This document shows, piece by piece, positions 5,158 to 55,081 of a stretch of 64,000 nucleotides of DNA. The notes below the pieces were generated by a model. That model searched no databases. It was not told the DNA's origin and saw nothing but the letters and a program-made list of their open reading frames with translations. Origin of the DNA: Kiloniella laminariae DSM 19542 (lineage in GTDB: Bacteria; Pseudomonadota; Alphaproteobacteria; Kiloniellales; Kiloniellaceae); NCBI RefSeq assembly GCF_000374005.1, contig NZ_KB893135.1, positions 124,001 through 188,000 on the forward strand, given 5' to 3'. The translations under genes were made by a program, and so were the position numbers. The stretch's first letter is position 1; each line of letters starts with the position of its first letter.

Positions 5158-6732
5158 ATGAAAAACACAGGCTTTATCAAGGCGCCCTTGCTGGCGTCCC
5201 TTTTCGTATATCCGGTTCTCTTCTTCGCAACCCTCCAAAGCGCCGTTGCCCAGGAAGCCGGCGGTATTGATGCCAAGGTCAACGAAATCTTCTCGCTGGC
5301 AACCGGCTGGTTCGTCAACCTGATCTTTGCCAACCTCCCCGGGACCTCCTTTCCCTGGATCGTGCTCTGGCTGGTGGTTGGCGCCACCGTCTTTACCATC
5401 TACTTTGCCTTCATCCAGTTTCGTGCTGTCGGCCATGCGATCTCGCTGGTCAAGGGCGACTATTCCAACCCCAATGACGCTGGTGAAGTCAGCCACTTCC
5501 AGGCCCTTGCTACCGCGCTTTCCGGTACCGTTGGTCTTGGGAATATTGCCGGGGTCGCCGTTGCGGTCAGTATTGGCGGGCCGGGTGCCACCTTCTGGAT
5601 GATCCTGGCGGGTCTGATGGGCATGGCGTCAAAATTCACCGAATGTACTCTCGGGGTCAAATACCGGAATGAATATCCCGACGGGACCGTTTCCGGTGGT
5701 CCGATGTACTATATCTCCAAGGGCTTTGCCGAACGTGGCCTGCCAGGCGGCAAGTTCCTCGCCATTCTCTTTGCCGTCTTCTGTATTCTTGGTGCCCTCG
5801 GCGGCGGCAACATGTTCCAGGCCAACCAGGCCCATGCCCAACTGGCTGGAATTTTTGACGACTATCCCGGCTGGATTACCGGTGTGATCTTTGCTGGCGT
5901 GGTCTTTGCCGTTATCGTCGGCGGGATCAAATCCATCGCCCAGGTTACGGAAAAAGTCGTGCCTTTTATGGGCATCATGTACGTTGCTGCGGCCCTGATC
6001 ATCATCCTGATGAACTATGACAAGATCGGCTGGGCTTTTGGCCAGATCTTTGACGGTGCCTTTACAGGTCTTGGTGTTGCCGGTGGTCTGGTTGGTGCCC
6101 TGATCCAAGGCTTCAAGCGGGCGGCTTTTTCCAACGAGGCCGGGGTTGGCTCTGCTGCCATCGCCCACTCTGCGGTACAGACCAGCGAGCCCATCACCGA
6201 AGGTGTGGTCTCCCTGCTCGAACCTTTCATTGATACCGTGGTAATCTGTACCATGACTGCTCTGGTGATTATCATCACCGGCCAGTTGACCAGCGATCCG
6301 GCAACCGGGATGTATATTCTTGGTGAAAACGGCCAGATCGTAACAGCAACCGGTGCTTCGGGTGTCGGCCTGACGTCTGCCGCCTTTGGTTCAGCCATCA
6401 GCTGGTTCCCCTATGTGCTGGCACTGGCAGTGATCCTCTTTGCCTTCTCGACCATGATCAGCTGGTCCTACTATGGCCTCAAGGCCTGGACCTATCTGTT
6501 CGGTGAAGGCAAGACAAAAGAGCTGATCTTCAAGGTGATCTTCTGTGTCTTTGTCGTTATTGGTGCCGCCGCCAACCTCGGTCCGGTGATCGACTTCTCC
6601 GATGCCGCGATCTTTGCCATGGCGGTAGTCAACATCATCGGTCTTTACTGCCTGATGCCGATCGTCAAGCGCGAGCTGAACTCCTATATGTCCCGCCTCA
6701 AGTCCGGCGAGATCAAGAAGTTCAAAAACTAG
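5158..6732 (+). CDS. Sodium:alanine/glycine symporter (AGCS family)
   Basis: A 524-residue polytopic membrane protein of the alanine or glycine:cation symporter family, which imports small neutral amino acids with Na+. Characteristic stretches are [65 protein letters not shown] and a C-terminal [15 protein letters not shown]. The N-terminus (about residues 1-38) is hydrophobic and signal-like, as is common for the longer AGCS members. An in-frame TTG at 5137 inside uspA is possible, but the ATG at 5158 with AAAGGTGA upstream is better. The gene is the second of a uspA operon and ends at a strong terminator. Confidence 0.93.
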
Positions 6733-50913: not shown

Positions 50914-51061
50914 GTCATTTATCTCAAGACACCATGAATGCAAAAATTGCCGGAAGATTATATAGGAAAACCATCACTCTTGCCCCCAGGGGTTTGTCCC
51001 CCGAAACTTCTGTCAATGATGCCCGCCAGAAAACCAGAAAGCATCATTGACAAGCACACTG

Positions 51062-52030
51062 CTAGTCCGCAGGTTTGACTGAAGTGCCCGGCAAGTTATT
51101 CAGATACTGCAAGGCCCCGCCCACTTTTGAACTTCTGTGCTCAACCCCTAGATCCTGCAACCCCTGTACAACTTTGTGGTGAGCAGTATCCGAGAAACAA
51201 TAGATAAATACATTAGCACCAGTATTCATGGAGTAATATACTGGCTCGCCATTTTTTTGCCGGAGGTTTCTGGTAAAAACCATTGTCGCAACTGTTTCAG
51301 GTTGCCACAAAAACAGGTTATTGTGGCCCGTGTGCAGTACAGCATAATTTAAGACACTGTGCCGCTCTGAAAGATCCGCAAGACGATCAATGTCTCTTGT
51401 CTCCAGCCCCTTTATCATCTGATCCGCTGTGTTTGCGACCAGATGGCGCACGGGCTCCAGCATCGGCGATGAAGCTGCTTCTTCATAGAAATTATGATTG
51501 TCTTTGTGATATCGAGCGAAAGCCACGACAACAGTGATATCCTCTAACTCACCGGGGGAAAAAACTTGCTCTCCATAAGTTGGAATTCCATATCCTGAAC
51601 GTCGAACAATAGATATCCCGCCTGTAACAGAAGCTGAAGCCGAAAACGACCCCTTACGCGCCAACTCCGAGATATCCCTTAGCTTCTCTGATGATGAAAG
51701 AAGACGGGTGATGCCTCCTGCCAGGCAGGCATATCCTGAAGAAGAAGAGGCCAGCCCGACATCCGGTTCAAAGTTATTCTCGGTATGAATCTCAACCGAT
51801 TGATCCGTCACACTGCCTATATAGCTGTATGCTCTTTCATAGTCTTTTGGCCAAACTGGTTTACTTTTCCCGCCATCTCCTTCAACCCGACTCATGGTTG
51901 TTATTGTTTTGAAAGAATCAAGAGATGTATAAAGCATATCGATAGTCAGTGTTTTTAAAGATGCTTCCTGATACTGATGAAAGCAGGTTAAACCTTGAGC
52001 TGCATTTGCAGTGACTGTTACAGTATTCAT
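51062..52030 (-). CDS. Divergent GHMP-family protein resembling diphosphomevalonate decarboxylase
   Basis: 322 residues. GHMP kinase/MVD-like scaffold: N-terminal VTVTANAAQGL, phosphate loop DVGLASSSSGYACLAGG (about 90-106), ELARKGSFSASASVTGGISI (about 122-141) and YYSMNTGANVFIY (266-277). In true decarboxylases the second block reads GSGSACRS-x-x-GG and the third has D-A-G-P-N. Here the Arg is Ala and the Asp is Asn, and the N-terminal KYWGK mevalonate region is absent. Decarboxylation is therefore unlikely; a kinase on another alcohol is possible. The ATG overlaps the stop of the CYTH-like gene (TAATG). Confidence 0.8.
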   Translation of the reverse strand: MNTVTVTANAAQGLTCFHQYQEASLKTLTIDMLYTSLDSFKTITTMSRVEGDGGKSKPVWPKDYERAYSYIGSVTDQSVEIHTENNFEPDVGLASSSSGYACLAGGITRLLSSSEKLRDISELARKGSFSASASVTGGISIVRRSGYGIPTYGEQVFSPGELEDITVVVAFARYHKDNHNFYEEAASSPMLEPVRHLVANTADQMIKGLETRDIDRLADLSERHSVLNYAVLHTGHNNLFLWQPETVATMVFTRNLRQKNGEPVYYSMNTGANVFIYCFSDTAHHKVVQGLQDLGVEHRSSKVGGALQYLNNLPGTSVKPAD

Positions 52031-52536
52031 TACTGATCATCTCCAACATTCATATCAAGATAAATTTCGATGACACTTCTGCTATCTGGTTTCGACGTAT
52101 CAAACCCCAGGCTTTCAAGAAATACTTTTACCTTTTCGGCATTCTCATTCAGAAATTTAGCTTCAAGAACGCTGAACAGATCATCGACAGCAACAATATC
52201 TATTCTCAGAAAATCATTCTCCCAGGTCCGAAAGGATTTAAGGAACGTTTTCAGAGGCTTACTGCCAATATTTTCCAGAATTAGCCGCATTTGTTCCGGG
52301 TCTGAAATATCGGTTCCACACCGAACCCAATCCCCGCTACTCACATCTCTCGTTTTGTAGTCGAGATTATGGATACCTTCTGAACTTTTAAGTCTTAATA
52401 CTGAACTCTGTGAGGAACCGCCTGATACCGAAAAATAGGTGTATGTATGCGGCTTCGCTGTTCCAAAAACGATCCCCTTGGAGGCAAGGAGATCTATCAG
52501 TCCCTCATAAACTGGATATTTTTGCTGAATGGCCAT
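52030..52536 (-). CDS. CYTH-like (class IV adenylate cyclase/triphosphatase fold) protein
   Basis: 168 residues from the ATG at 52536, preceded by TGGAG. The order of features fits a CYTH tunnel protein: a basic strand pair SSVLRLKSSEGIHNLDYKTR, then PEQMRLILENIGSKPLKTFL, KSFRTWENDFLRIDIVAVDD and LFSVLEAKFLNENAEKVKVF with a C-terminal VIEIYLDM strand. The first ExExK element is not seen, so the assignment is by pattern only. The stop overlaps the GHMP start. The two genes appear to form one operon in AT-rich DNA. Confidence 0.6.
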   Translation of the reverse strand: MAIQQKYPVYEGLIDLLASKGIVFGTAKPHTYTYFSVSGGSSQSSVLRLKSSEGIHNLDYKTRDVSSGDWVRCGTDISDPEQMRLILENIGSKPLKTFLKSFRTWENDFLRIDIVAVDDLFSVLEAKFLNENAEKVKVFLESLGFDTSKPDSRSVIEIYLDMNVGDDQ

Positions 52537-52849
52537 GATACTCCATTTCCCAAAAATATTTTTGTAACACAAAGTTCATAAATATGAAATTTTTTACACT
52601 TATAGCGCGAATCCATGAAAGCAAGCCATATCTTGGAAAAATCTGAGGATAACTAAATTTCGGCAGAAAATAGCTCATTTTTGCCACAGGCCACTCAAGT
52701 GACATTTCAATAAAATAGTTTATAGGTAGAATTTCCCTGAAATTAGTACAAGAAAATACAGAGTTAAAAACTCACACGTCCGGCAATAACAACAAGGAAT
52801 AGAAGTAAGTACTTACTTAAGCTGTACTTTAAAATCCCTATCTACATCC
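52537..52849. other. AT-rich promoter region of the CYTH/GHMP operon
   Basis: 313 bp, no gene. AT-rich throughout (52570-52760), with an AGTAAGTACTTACTT palindrome near 52805-52819 that may be a regulator site or promoter element for the operon. The neighbouring oxygenase gene ends at 52850. Confidence 0.5.
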
Positions 52850-53641
52850 CTACCCCAGACGTCCGTAAAAGGTCATGCGCGCGGATTCAGACAGGACAAT
52901 GCCGGGTTTGGTGTTATAGGCCAGCACCACCAGAATGCGGGTGCGCGCGCCCTCGACCGGGGCAACGCGGTGCAGGGCGTTGCGGCCACGAAACAGCACC
53001 AGCGCCCCCGGCCCCATGGCGAGCTGCTTTACCGGACGCCTGCCGTCCAGCACCTCGGCCACACCGTCAAAGTTCAGATCACCTTTATCGGCATCGCGCA
53101 GATCGGTGACATATTCAAAAGTTCCGCCCGCCGCAGGTTCCTGGATCATCAGGGTGGTGGCAAAAGACGAATTGTCAAAATGCCAGCCCAGTTCCTGCCC
53201 CGTCTTCGCATAGTGTACGTTGATCGAGGACAGCGGATCGGCATAGGCATGCAGCCCCGCCTCGCCCAGCACGGCACAAAGAAACCCGCGCAGATCCGGG
53301 GAATCATAAAGACAGCCCAGCGGTGATCCCGCCGGGACGATATCATCCGTAATGCAGCCCTTGGAGGATATCACCTGGCGATTGCGCGGGTGCTCCTCGG
53401 CAAAAGCCGGATCGGGCGGGCTGAGATAAACATTGTGTTTCTGGGCACAGAAATAGGCCTGATCCATATGCGCCAGCGCCTCGTCCCGGACCTGCGCCAC
53501 CGCCGCTTTCTCAAGAAAGCCTGGCAACACCAGCACCCCGTCCCGATCCAGCGTGGCTTTGCATTCGGCCTGAAAATCCTGATCTGTCAGCGGGTAGCGC
53601 CCAAGATCAACAATATCCTTTAGATTAATATCCTGCATCAT
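52850..53641 (-). CDS. 2-oxoglutarate/Fe(II)-dependent oxygenase (HalD/BesD-like family)
   Basis: 263 residues. The double-stranded beta-helix iron site is complete: His154 and Asp156 in GWHFDNSSFATTL, His224 in GRNALHRVAPVEGARTRI, with Arg233 or Arg235 for 2-oxoglutarate. Radical halogenases of the HalD/BesD group have Gly in place of that Asp, so this protein should hydroxylate rather than halogenate. The substrate is unknown, but relatives act on free amino acids. A GNAT gene lies 6 bp upstream on the same strand. Confidence 0.88.
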   Translation of the reverse strand: MMQDINLKDIVDLGRYPLTDQDFQAECKATLDRDGVLVLPGFLEKAAVAQVRDEALAHMDQAYFCAQKHNVYLSPPDPAFAEEHPRNRQVISSKGCITDDIVPAGSPLGCLYDSPDLRGFLCAVLGEAGLHAYADPLSSINVHYAKTGQELGWHFDNSSFATTLMIQEPAAGGTFEYVTDLRDADKGDLNFDGVAEVLDGRRPVKQLAMGPGALVLFRGRNALHRVAPVEGARTRILVVLAYNTKPGIVLSESARMTFYGRLG

Positions 53642-54301: not shown

Positions 54302-55081
54302 ATGGGGATCGCACAGGATTTTGGCGGCGTGATGGGTTATTTTAGCCTTATAAAATTGATAGCTTATTGCCTATGGACCGGACGTAACGTTTTCTTACAA
54401 AGAAAATTTGAATTCATTCCCGGCGGGAAACACCCCGGCACCTGGTTCTATGCCGCCGTTCCCCCGGCTTTATGCTATCTCGCTCTATTTCTGCTCACAG
54501 CAATCGGGATTACCGATTTCCCGTTCTTCTATGATTTTATCGCGTATTTCGAGAAAACAATTCCTGTAGCTCAGCATGTGATTCATTATAAGAGTGCTTA
54601 TAACTTCCTTTTTTCAGTCGTACTCGTTTCCTACTCCATTGCATTTTTGTTCTTCCCGCGGGATCTGTATATTTTATGGAAAAGGAAAAATCATCTTAAA
54701 ATAGATCGTAAAGTATTGTGGCTGATCTTGAATATCATTCAGGCACGTAGCTGGATTGGTGTCACAAAATTTATTATAGCAACTCCCTTAATATTTCTCT
54801 TCATGGGATATACCGTCTTTATTTTATTATACGACACAAACCCTTTAGATTGTGACCTTTCCTCAGGTTCGGCTTTTGGAAACTATCTTATGGGAACCGG
54901 TGTGTGCAGCTCTGGATTTGTTTTGATCTGTTTGATGTACTTGCCTGTATGTATCTTTGGATTTTTATCCCTTGGTCTGCCCACATATCTCTTTTGTATC
55001 ACAGAGCTGTTTTCGGCCGATATGCCGCTAAGGAATAAAGAGGGCCTCATTGGAAGATCAAACAAATCAGGGATAAAGTAG
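54302..55081 (+). CDS. Hypothetical integral membrane protein
   Basis: 259 residues with about five to six membrane helices (YAAVPPALCYLALFLLTAIG, NFLFSVVLVSYSIAFLFFPR, FIIATPLIFLFMGYTVFILL, FVLICLMYLPVCIFGFLSLG). The start after GAGGAAA is good. No family is recognised. The DNA is AT-rich compared with the genes on both sides. It stands alone; the next gene begins 74 bp later. Confidence 0.7.
   Translation: MGIAQDFGGVMGYFSLIKLIAYCLWTGRNVFLQRKFEFIPGGKHPGTWFYAAVPPALCYLALFLLTAIGITDFPFFYDFIAYFEKTIPVAQHVIHYKSAYNFLFSVVLVSYSIAFLFFPRDLYILWKRKNHLKIDRKVLWLILNIIQARSWIGVTKFIIATPLIFLFMGYTVFILLYDTNPLDCDLSSGSAFGNYLMGTGVCSSGFVLICLMYLPVCIFGFLSLGLPTYLFCITELFSADMPLRNKEGLIGRSNKSGIK

Follow-up and report, generated by a model that had tools for sequence, protein, structure and literature searches.

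A two-gene pair of Kiloniella laminariae encoding a decarboxylase-family GHMP protein and a remote CYTH-like partner, both with replaced catalytic residues

In a 64,000-nucleotide stretch of the genome of Kiloniella laminariae DSM 19542 (hereafter the window), two overlapping genes encode a GHMP-fold protein and a CYTH-like protein. Alignments show that both have lost family-defining catalytic residues, while each keeps part of a putative phosphate- or nucleotide-binding face. The pair is an acquired two-gene cassette, and we tentatively favor the reading that a kinase that no longer decarboxylates is combined in it with a CYTH-like partner that binds phosphate and does not hydrolyse it. The main and close rival, a pseudoenzyme pair, is a doubtful yet serious possibility.

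The two open reading frames that a previous sequence-only reading had placed here were both found, and so was the overlap that it had described, the stop of the CYTH-like gene and the start of the GHMP gene having one base in common in TAATG (ATGATCAGTAATGAAT). The ATG of the CYTH-like gene is preceded by GGAG, and an in-frame TTG at 52572 would lengthen the protein by 12 aa. Read along the minus strand, the order is a GNAT gene, a HalD-family 2-oxoglutarate oxygenase gene, ~310 AT-rich bases, the CYTH-like gene, the GHMP gene, ~120 bases that include a hairpin, and tauE (Table 1). No sigma-70-type site was found on the minus strand of the leader between halD and the CYTH-like gene. The hairpin below the GHMP stop has no U-run after its arms, and its 12-bp arms have no further copies in the window. 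An integron cassette was set aside, the hairpin showing by eye no ends that resemble the core-site motif of attC. A hairpin at the start codon (arms 52516-52532 and 52543-52559) was also discarded, since it folds no better than shuffled sequences (z -0.84). The HalD-family protein upstream (52850-53641, minus strand) reads, by eye, HFD in its presumed iron site, that is HxD rather than HxG, so that hydroxylation is presumably a likelier activity than halogenation.

Table 1. Positions in the window of the two genes, their flanking elements and the residues discussed in the text
Feature	Coordinates	Strand	Remarks
GHMP-fold protein gene	51062..52030	-	322 aa; putative offshoot of haloarchaeal-type phosphomevalonate decarboxylases
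CYTH-like protein gene	52030..52536	-	168 aa from ATG
AT-rich leader between halD and CYTH-like gene	52537..52849	-	GC 0.326; presumed promoter region
Hairpin just below GHMP stop	51011..51052	.	Very stable fold (z -4.74 relative to shuffled sequences); 12-bp inverted repeat without mismatches
Cys16 replacing conserved Lys	51983..51985	-	Lys in 75/75 ungapped homologs
Ala133 replacing conserved Arg	51632..51634	-	Arg in 77/77 homologs
Asn269 replacing conserved Asp	51224..51226	-	Asp in 76/77 homologs
Phosphate loop GLASSSSG, residues 92-99, kept	51734..51757	-	From alignment
Lys176 in YHKD loop	51503..51505	-	Aligns with Lys invariant in 17 haloarchaeal-type rows, 19/77 overall
AIQQK replacing CYTH hallmark ExExK, residues 2-6	52519..52533	-	From alignment to 21 CYTH rows
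EAK replacing CYTH ExE, residues 125-127	52156..52164	-	First Glu kept

As for the GHMP protein, profiles and structure bear out the GHMP/diphosphomevalonate decarboxylase fold that had been proposed for it. In Pfam, it matches PF22700 (E 5e-17) and GHMP_kinases_N (7e-5) above their cut-offs and the C-terminal MDD_C below its cut-off (E 0.071). The best NCBIfam match is NF040704, phosphomevalonate decarboxylase (2.1e-38), with 132.2 bits against a cut-off of 475; TIGR01240 scores 78.6 bits, under its 171.35-bit equivalog cut-off, and NF040848, the mevalonate-3-kinase family, 21.5 bits, under its 440-bit cut-off. The best PDB relative by sequence is 6n0x, a phosphomevalonate decarboxylase of Anaerolinea (1.1e-19), and identity to phosphomevalonate decarboxylases is 34-35% at best. 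A structural model built with 39 relatives from a pattern scan of GTDB has a pLDDT of 88.8. Its closest fold is 6n0y, again Anaerolinea phosphomevalonate decarboxylase (Z 38.1), followed by most other decarboxylases (Z 36.6 to 30.7), mevalonate-3-kinase (30.6), a Legionella decarboxylase (29.2) and Picrophilus MBD (29.0), with Z values of 25.2 or less for the non-decarboxylase GHMP kinases among the matches listed. Because decarboxylase relatives went into the model, these matches are evidence of fold rather than of function.

A maximum-likelihood tree with 78 rows, 77 of them distinct, places the GHMP protein as sister (100/98) to a group of 18 rows that come from haloarchaea and from genomes of their phylum. 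With a length of 4.12, its end branch is roughly 18-fold the tree median of 0.23, and so long a branch drew a warning from the tree program and makes the placement unsure. The placement agrees with what the protein and the haloarchaeal type have in common, namely QGL..H, a short YHKD loop and a TGA motif. Together, tree and motifs show the GHMP protein as a presumptive descendant of the haloarchaeal-type phosphomevalonate decarboxylase lineage, its exact place on so long a branch being unsure.

Active-site residues were compared with those of 77 homologs (76 distinct), which comprise 46 from the GTDB pattern scan, 8 from the phylum and plasmid searches, 2 from the PF22700 search of the class, 9 from another proteobacterial class and 12 from the haloarchaeal phylum; L088 (no tblastn match), L090 (a 58-aa frame) and L091 were left out of both the alignment and the tree. 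The Lys, Arg and Asp of the decarboxylation site are all replaced, the latter two in the way the sequence-only reading had it. The Lys and Arg positions have roles in decarboxylation in this family, and Ala133 and Cys16 are stronger evidence for its loss than Asn269. Asn269 alone is ambiguous, because D281N of Saccharolobus DMD (SsoDMD) keeps decarboxylase activity while D309N of Picrophilus MBD (PtoMBD) is inactive, as excerpts of PMC9254496 describe; a change of the SsoDMD Asp to Thr or Val turned that decarboxylase into a kinase, according to the same excerpts. With all three residues changed, a mevalonate-like acid is unlikely to be decarboxylated. The claim that decarboxylation residues are lost stands for Ala133 and Asn269, with Cys16 added to them, but Asn269 by itself is no proof that decarboxylation is lost. 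The single exception at the Asp position among the homologs, a Candidatus Magasanikbacteria protein (L049, ~5725-6705), likewise has Asn; it keeps Lys and Arg, lies on a long branch, and is possibly another non-canonical member of the decarboxylase family.

There are 29 columns in which conservation among the homologs reaches 93% or more; the GHMP protein keeps 16 of them (including N85, G92, S96, S121, R125, S130, E222 and G271) and loses 13 (including K16, Y17, G19, S32, S34, R133 and D269). Thirteen columns lost at random would cover all three catalytic positions with a chance of 0.078, so that what carries weight is the side of the site that has gone, rather than this probability. The kept side consists of the ATP-loop and helix residues and K176, and the lost side of the N-terminal KY.G strand, S32, S34, R133 and D269. 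Two further points of the sequence-only reading, a phosphate loop that is kept and a mevalonate-binding N-terminal motif that is missing, agree with this. The kinase Lys/Arg of SsoDMD and of mevalonate-3-kinase (M3K) sits on the loop that corresponds to YHKD, as described in part of PMC9254496. The alignment thus shows a putative nucleotide-binding core that is retained, and a site in which the three decarboxylation residues and much of the presumed N-terminal mevalonate strand are replaced.

As for the partner, its homology to CYTH proteins appears remote but is supported, in line with the earlier impression that it looks like one. Its sole NCBIfam match is TIGR00318 (cyaB; 2.1e-5, 24 bits), under the 57.95-bit cut-off, and no match was found in Pfam. 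A profile made from 21 CYTH proteins, which were drawn in part from 30 of the 46 GTDB-scan loci and from which eight partial or weak matches of 29 non-own matches were left out, gives the protein 22.2 bits, against 8.7 for the best of 2,000 shuffles. Alignment by hhalign to three CyaB-type proteins is weak (probability 5.9%), and a structure predicted from the single sequence reaches a pLDDT of 35.4, too low to show the eight-stranded tunnel fold of CYTH proteins.

In CYTH proteins, ExExK and ExE coordinate metals, as stated in the parts of PMC8233210 that we draw on. Where the 21 CYTH rows have Glu (16 rows) or Asn (5 rows), Glu (21) and Lys (21) in ExExK, the window protein reads A, Q and K; where they have Glu in 21/21 and 19/21 rows at the first and last positions of ExE, it reads E and K. 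Three of the four glutamates are therefore changed, the first of which is also missing from 5 of the 21 family members, and an Asp found in 21/21 rows is Val115. The basic side is kept in K6, R48, K61 and K100 and changed elsewhere: RxR has Lys50 in place of its second Arg, and Phe102, with an Arg at 103, stands where 21/21 rows have Arg. The motif HFxxxxExExK, given in the same parts of PMC8233210 as that of class IV adenylate cyclases, is absent, the N-terminus being MAIQQK. The three changed glutamates speak against the proposal that the partner hydrolyses an (oligo)phosphate.

The host genome contains IspH, and HMG-CoA reductase was not found in it by a search that matched 5 of 14 control genomes. 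On this basis, together with C16, A133 and N269, membership of a mevalonate pathway was rejected; as had been supposed from the neighborhood, these two genes give no sign of such a pathway. Acquisition of the pair, also part of the sequence-only reading, is borne out by a collinear sister genome (G042), in which the distance from tauE to the end of halD is 148 bases, as compared to 1.9 kb in the window, and both genes are absent; in addition, none of 60 other genomes of the order has a match to the GHMP protein. The locus is variable, with another frame at this site in G042, where only the C-terminal end of the HalD-family protein matches. By eye, the intergenic stretch of G042 shows no hairpin like that of the window, and the five repeat families found include no convincing direct repeat as a target-site duplication. 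The GHMP and CYTH-like genes have GC contents of 0.457 and 0.414 (0.42 and 0.38 at third positions), against 0.50-0.60 in 25 of the 32 2-kb bins of the window; among the neighbors, tauE (0.438) and the frame at 54302 (0.408) are AT-rich too. Of the earlier argument from AT-rich DNA to acquisition, the composition stands, but low GC by itself is poor evidence of transfer because the neighborhood is variable and tauE is likewise AT-rich.

We looked for relatives in samples of 61, 398, 385, 289, 266 and 275 genomes, which partly overlap, so that absence of relatives is not proven. In the order, the GHMP protein matches 1 of 61 genomes (48 of them near-complete), its own. Among 398 genomes of the phylum, five match: the host genome and four others, in which the three residues are intact. 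Another proteobacterial class (266 genomes) gave 18 matches and the haloarchaeal phylum (275 genomes) 60 matches in 57 genomes, the three residues being intact in 12/12 loci read in each. PF22700 matches 26 of 385 genomes of the class, seven of them with scores over the threshold. These seven are the host genome, five small genomes and L093, whose protein reads by eye as one of galactokinase type. The five small genomes (~0.8-1.0 Mb; L087-L091) have strong matches, and two of them, L087 and L089, have Lys, Arg and Asp intact and a very long branch in common. The GTDB scan, which used two short peptide patterns and can miss relatives, yielded 110 stretches, of which 46 were confirmed as relatives, all with at most 33% identity to the GHMP protein. 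Thirteen plasmid records match at 25-29% identity, and the four that were read keep the three residues. On plasmids of Halococcus dombrowskii and Haladaptatus halobius (L007 and L008), a phosphomevalonate-decarboxylase-like gene with intact residues lies near MarR and cobalamin (cbi) genes, and Haladaptatus also carries a further such copy.

For the CYTH-like protein, the searches covered fewer genomes than for the GHMP protein; among 289 genomes of the class it matches only that of the host, and it matches no plasmid. Relatives of either protein were absent from viral contigs, searched with single proteins and alignments, and from phages. No CYTH-like frame lies beside 80 decarboxylase-family loci (profile E 0.01, tblastn 1e-2), whose flanks total 1.8 to 16.7 kb and often measure ~1.5 kb per side. 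Conservation of the pair in other genomes, which the sequence-only reading had proposed as a test, was thus not seen, the genomes and the 80 loci examined containing no second copy. A full-text literature search for GHMP together with CYTH or with pseudoenzyme met no such pair. The absence of close relatives among the collections searched limits the generality of the finding.

In the reading that we tentatively favor, the two genes are a cassette gained by horizontal transfer. The GHMP protein would use ATP to phosphorylate a hydroxylated small molecule other than mevalonate and, like mevalonate-3-kinase, would stop after phosphotransfer without decarboxylating. Its partner, probably made by coupled translation, would bind a (poly)phosphorylated ligand through a basic wall of K6, R48, K61 and K100, without two-metal hydrolysis, and could be a subunit for binding, delivery or regulation, or act on pyrophosphate like plant TTM1/2. 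Several points count against this reading: the long branch (4.12 vs. 0.23) also fits decay; with 13 of 29 conserved columns gone, losing all three catalytic positions would be no great coincidence (0.078); Asn at the Asp position left SsoDMD a decarboxylase; no conserved partner genes were found; and the CYTH-like protein has a weak hhalign match, a structural model of low pLDDT and a basic side that is not intact either. The pseudoenzyme pair, either a non-catalytic complex for binding or regulation or an acquired fragment in decay whose frames are intact by chance, would account for the catalytic residues lost in both proteins, an end branch ~18 times the median, the 13 lost columns, and the finding of no relatives under common selection in the collections searched. 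What makes us doubt it is that the two overlapping frames are intact and that the GHMP protein has kept its ATP-loop residues and loop lysine while its mevalonate side has changed. A bolder form of the kinase reading, which we consider unlikely, would have a phosphomevalonate decarboxylase lineage re-tooled into a kinase for an unrelated metabolite. This kinase would work only together with a CYTH tunnel that holds no metal and takes up or senses the phosphorylated product, the two genes being a bacterial equivalent of the kinase-CYTH proteins of plants.

The other alternatives keep one activity or the other, or leave metabolism aside. If the GHMP protein still decarboxylated with ATP, on some 3-hydroxy acid that is not phosphomevalonate, this would suit its best family and fold matches, which are decarboxylases, and the tolerance of Asn in SsoDMD D281N; the Lys and Arg positions are lost as well, however, and D309N inactivated the Picrophilus enzyme (both mutants as in the excerpts of PMC9254496), which leaves this quite improbable. 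We give equally little credence to the partner processing the kinase product as a functional triphosphatase, in the manner of the sequence-only reading, or as a class IV adenylate cyclase: the sole NCBIfam match, TIGR00318 cyaB (2.1e-5), and the retention of K6, R48, K61 and K100 are set against changes in both ExExK glutamates, the last ExE glutamate and the Asp of 21/21 rows, and against the absence of the HFxxxxExExK motif given in PMC8233210. A small defence or toxin-antitoxin module in a variable spot seems very improbable. Two overlapping AT-rich genes, a spot that differs in G042 too and a Fic gene ~3.5 kb away would fit such a module, but there is no relative in phages and no relative of the CYTH-like protein in plasmids. 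Nor does any PADLOC family match, or any PHROG family below E 0.2, and a defence system was rejected on these grounds.

Should the GHMP protein be an active kinase, it would be a natural case of a decarboxylase that has turned into a kinase only, with another substrate. Such decarboxylase-to-kinase changes are exemplified, in the account given in excerpts of PMC9254496, by mevalonate-3-kinase and by point mutants of a decarboxylase. Should the CYTH-like partner bind phosphate without metal catalysis, a non-enzymatic role would be added to the tunnel fold.

Compared with known systems, the GHMP protein resembles the phosphomevalonate decarboxylases of haloarchaea and Anaerolinea (NF040704, 6n0x/6n0y) in fold (Z 38.1), QGL..H, ATP loop, YHKD loop and TGA motif. 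It differs from them in its replaced catalytic Lys, Arg and Asp and an identity of 34-35% at best, and its setting differs as well, the host genome lacking HMG-CoA reductase. With mevalonate-3-kinase (Thermoplasma, 4rkp; NF040848; Z 30.6), for which the excerpts of PMC9254496 name the absence of the catalytic Asp and the retention of the loop basic residue as criteria, it has in common the missing Asp (N269) and the kept K176. In contrast to that enzyme, with which it has 15% identity in the structural alignment and whose family profile gives 21.5 of 440 bits, it belongs to a host in which no mevalonate route was detected. The CYTH-like protein is linked to CYTH/triphosphate tunnel metalloenzymes (PF01928, SaTTM) by remote homology and by the order of several basic residues and strands, but it lacks intact ExExK and ExE metal motifs. 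In this respect, the pair recalls plant TTM1/2, which the consulted parts of PMC8233210 describe as having a kinase domain, lacking ExExK and ExE, and preferring pyrophosphate. The analogy is one of architecture, a kinase plus a CYTH module without metal motifs: according to those parts, the kinase domain of TTM1/2 is PF00485, in the same polypeptide and in plants and amoebae, whereas here it is a GHMP protein encoded by a separate gene.
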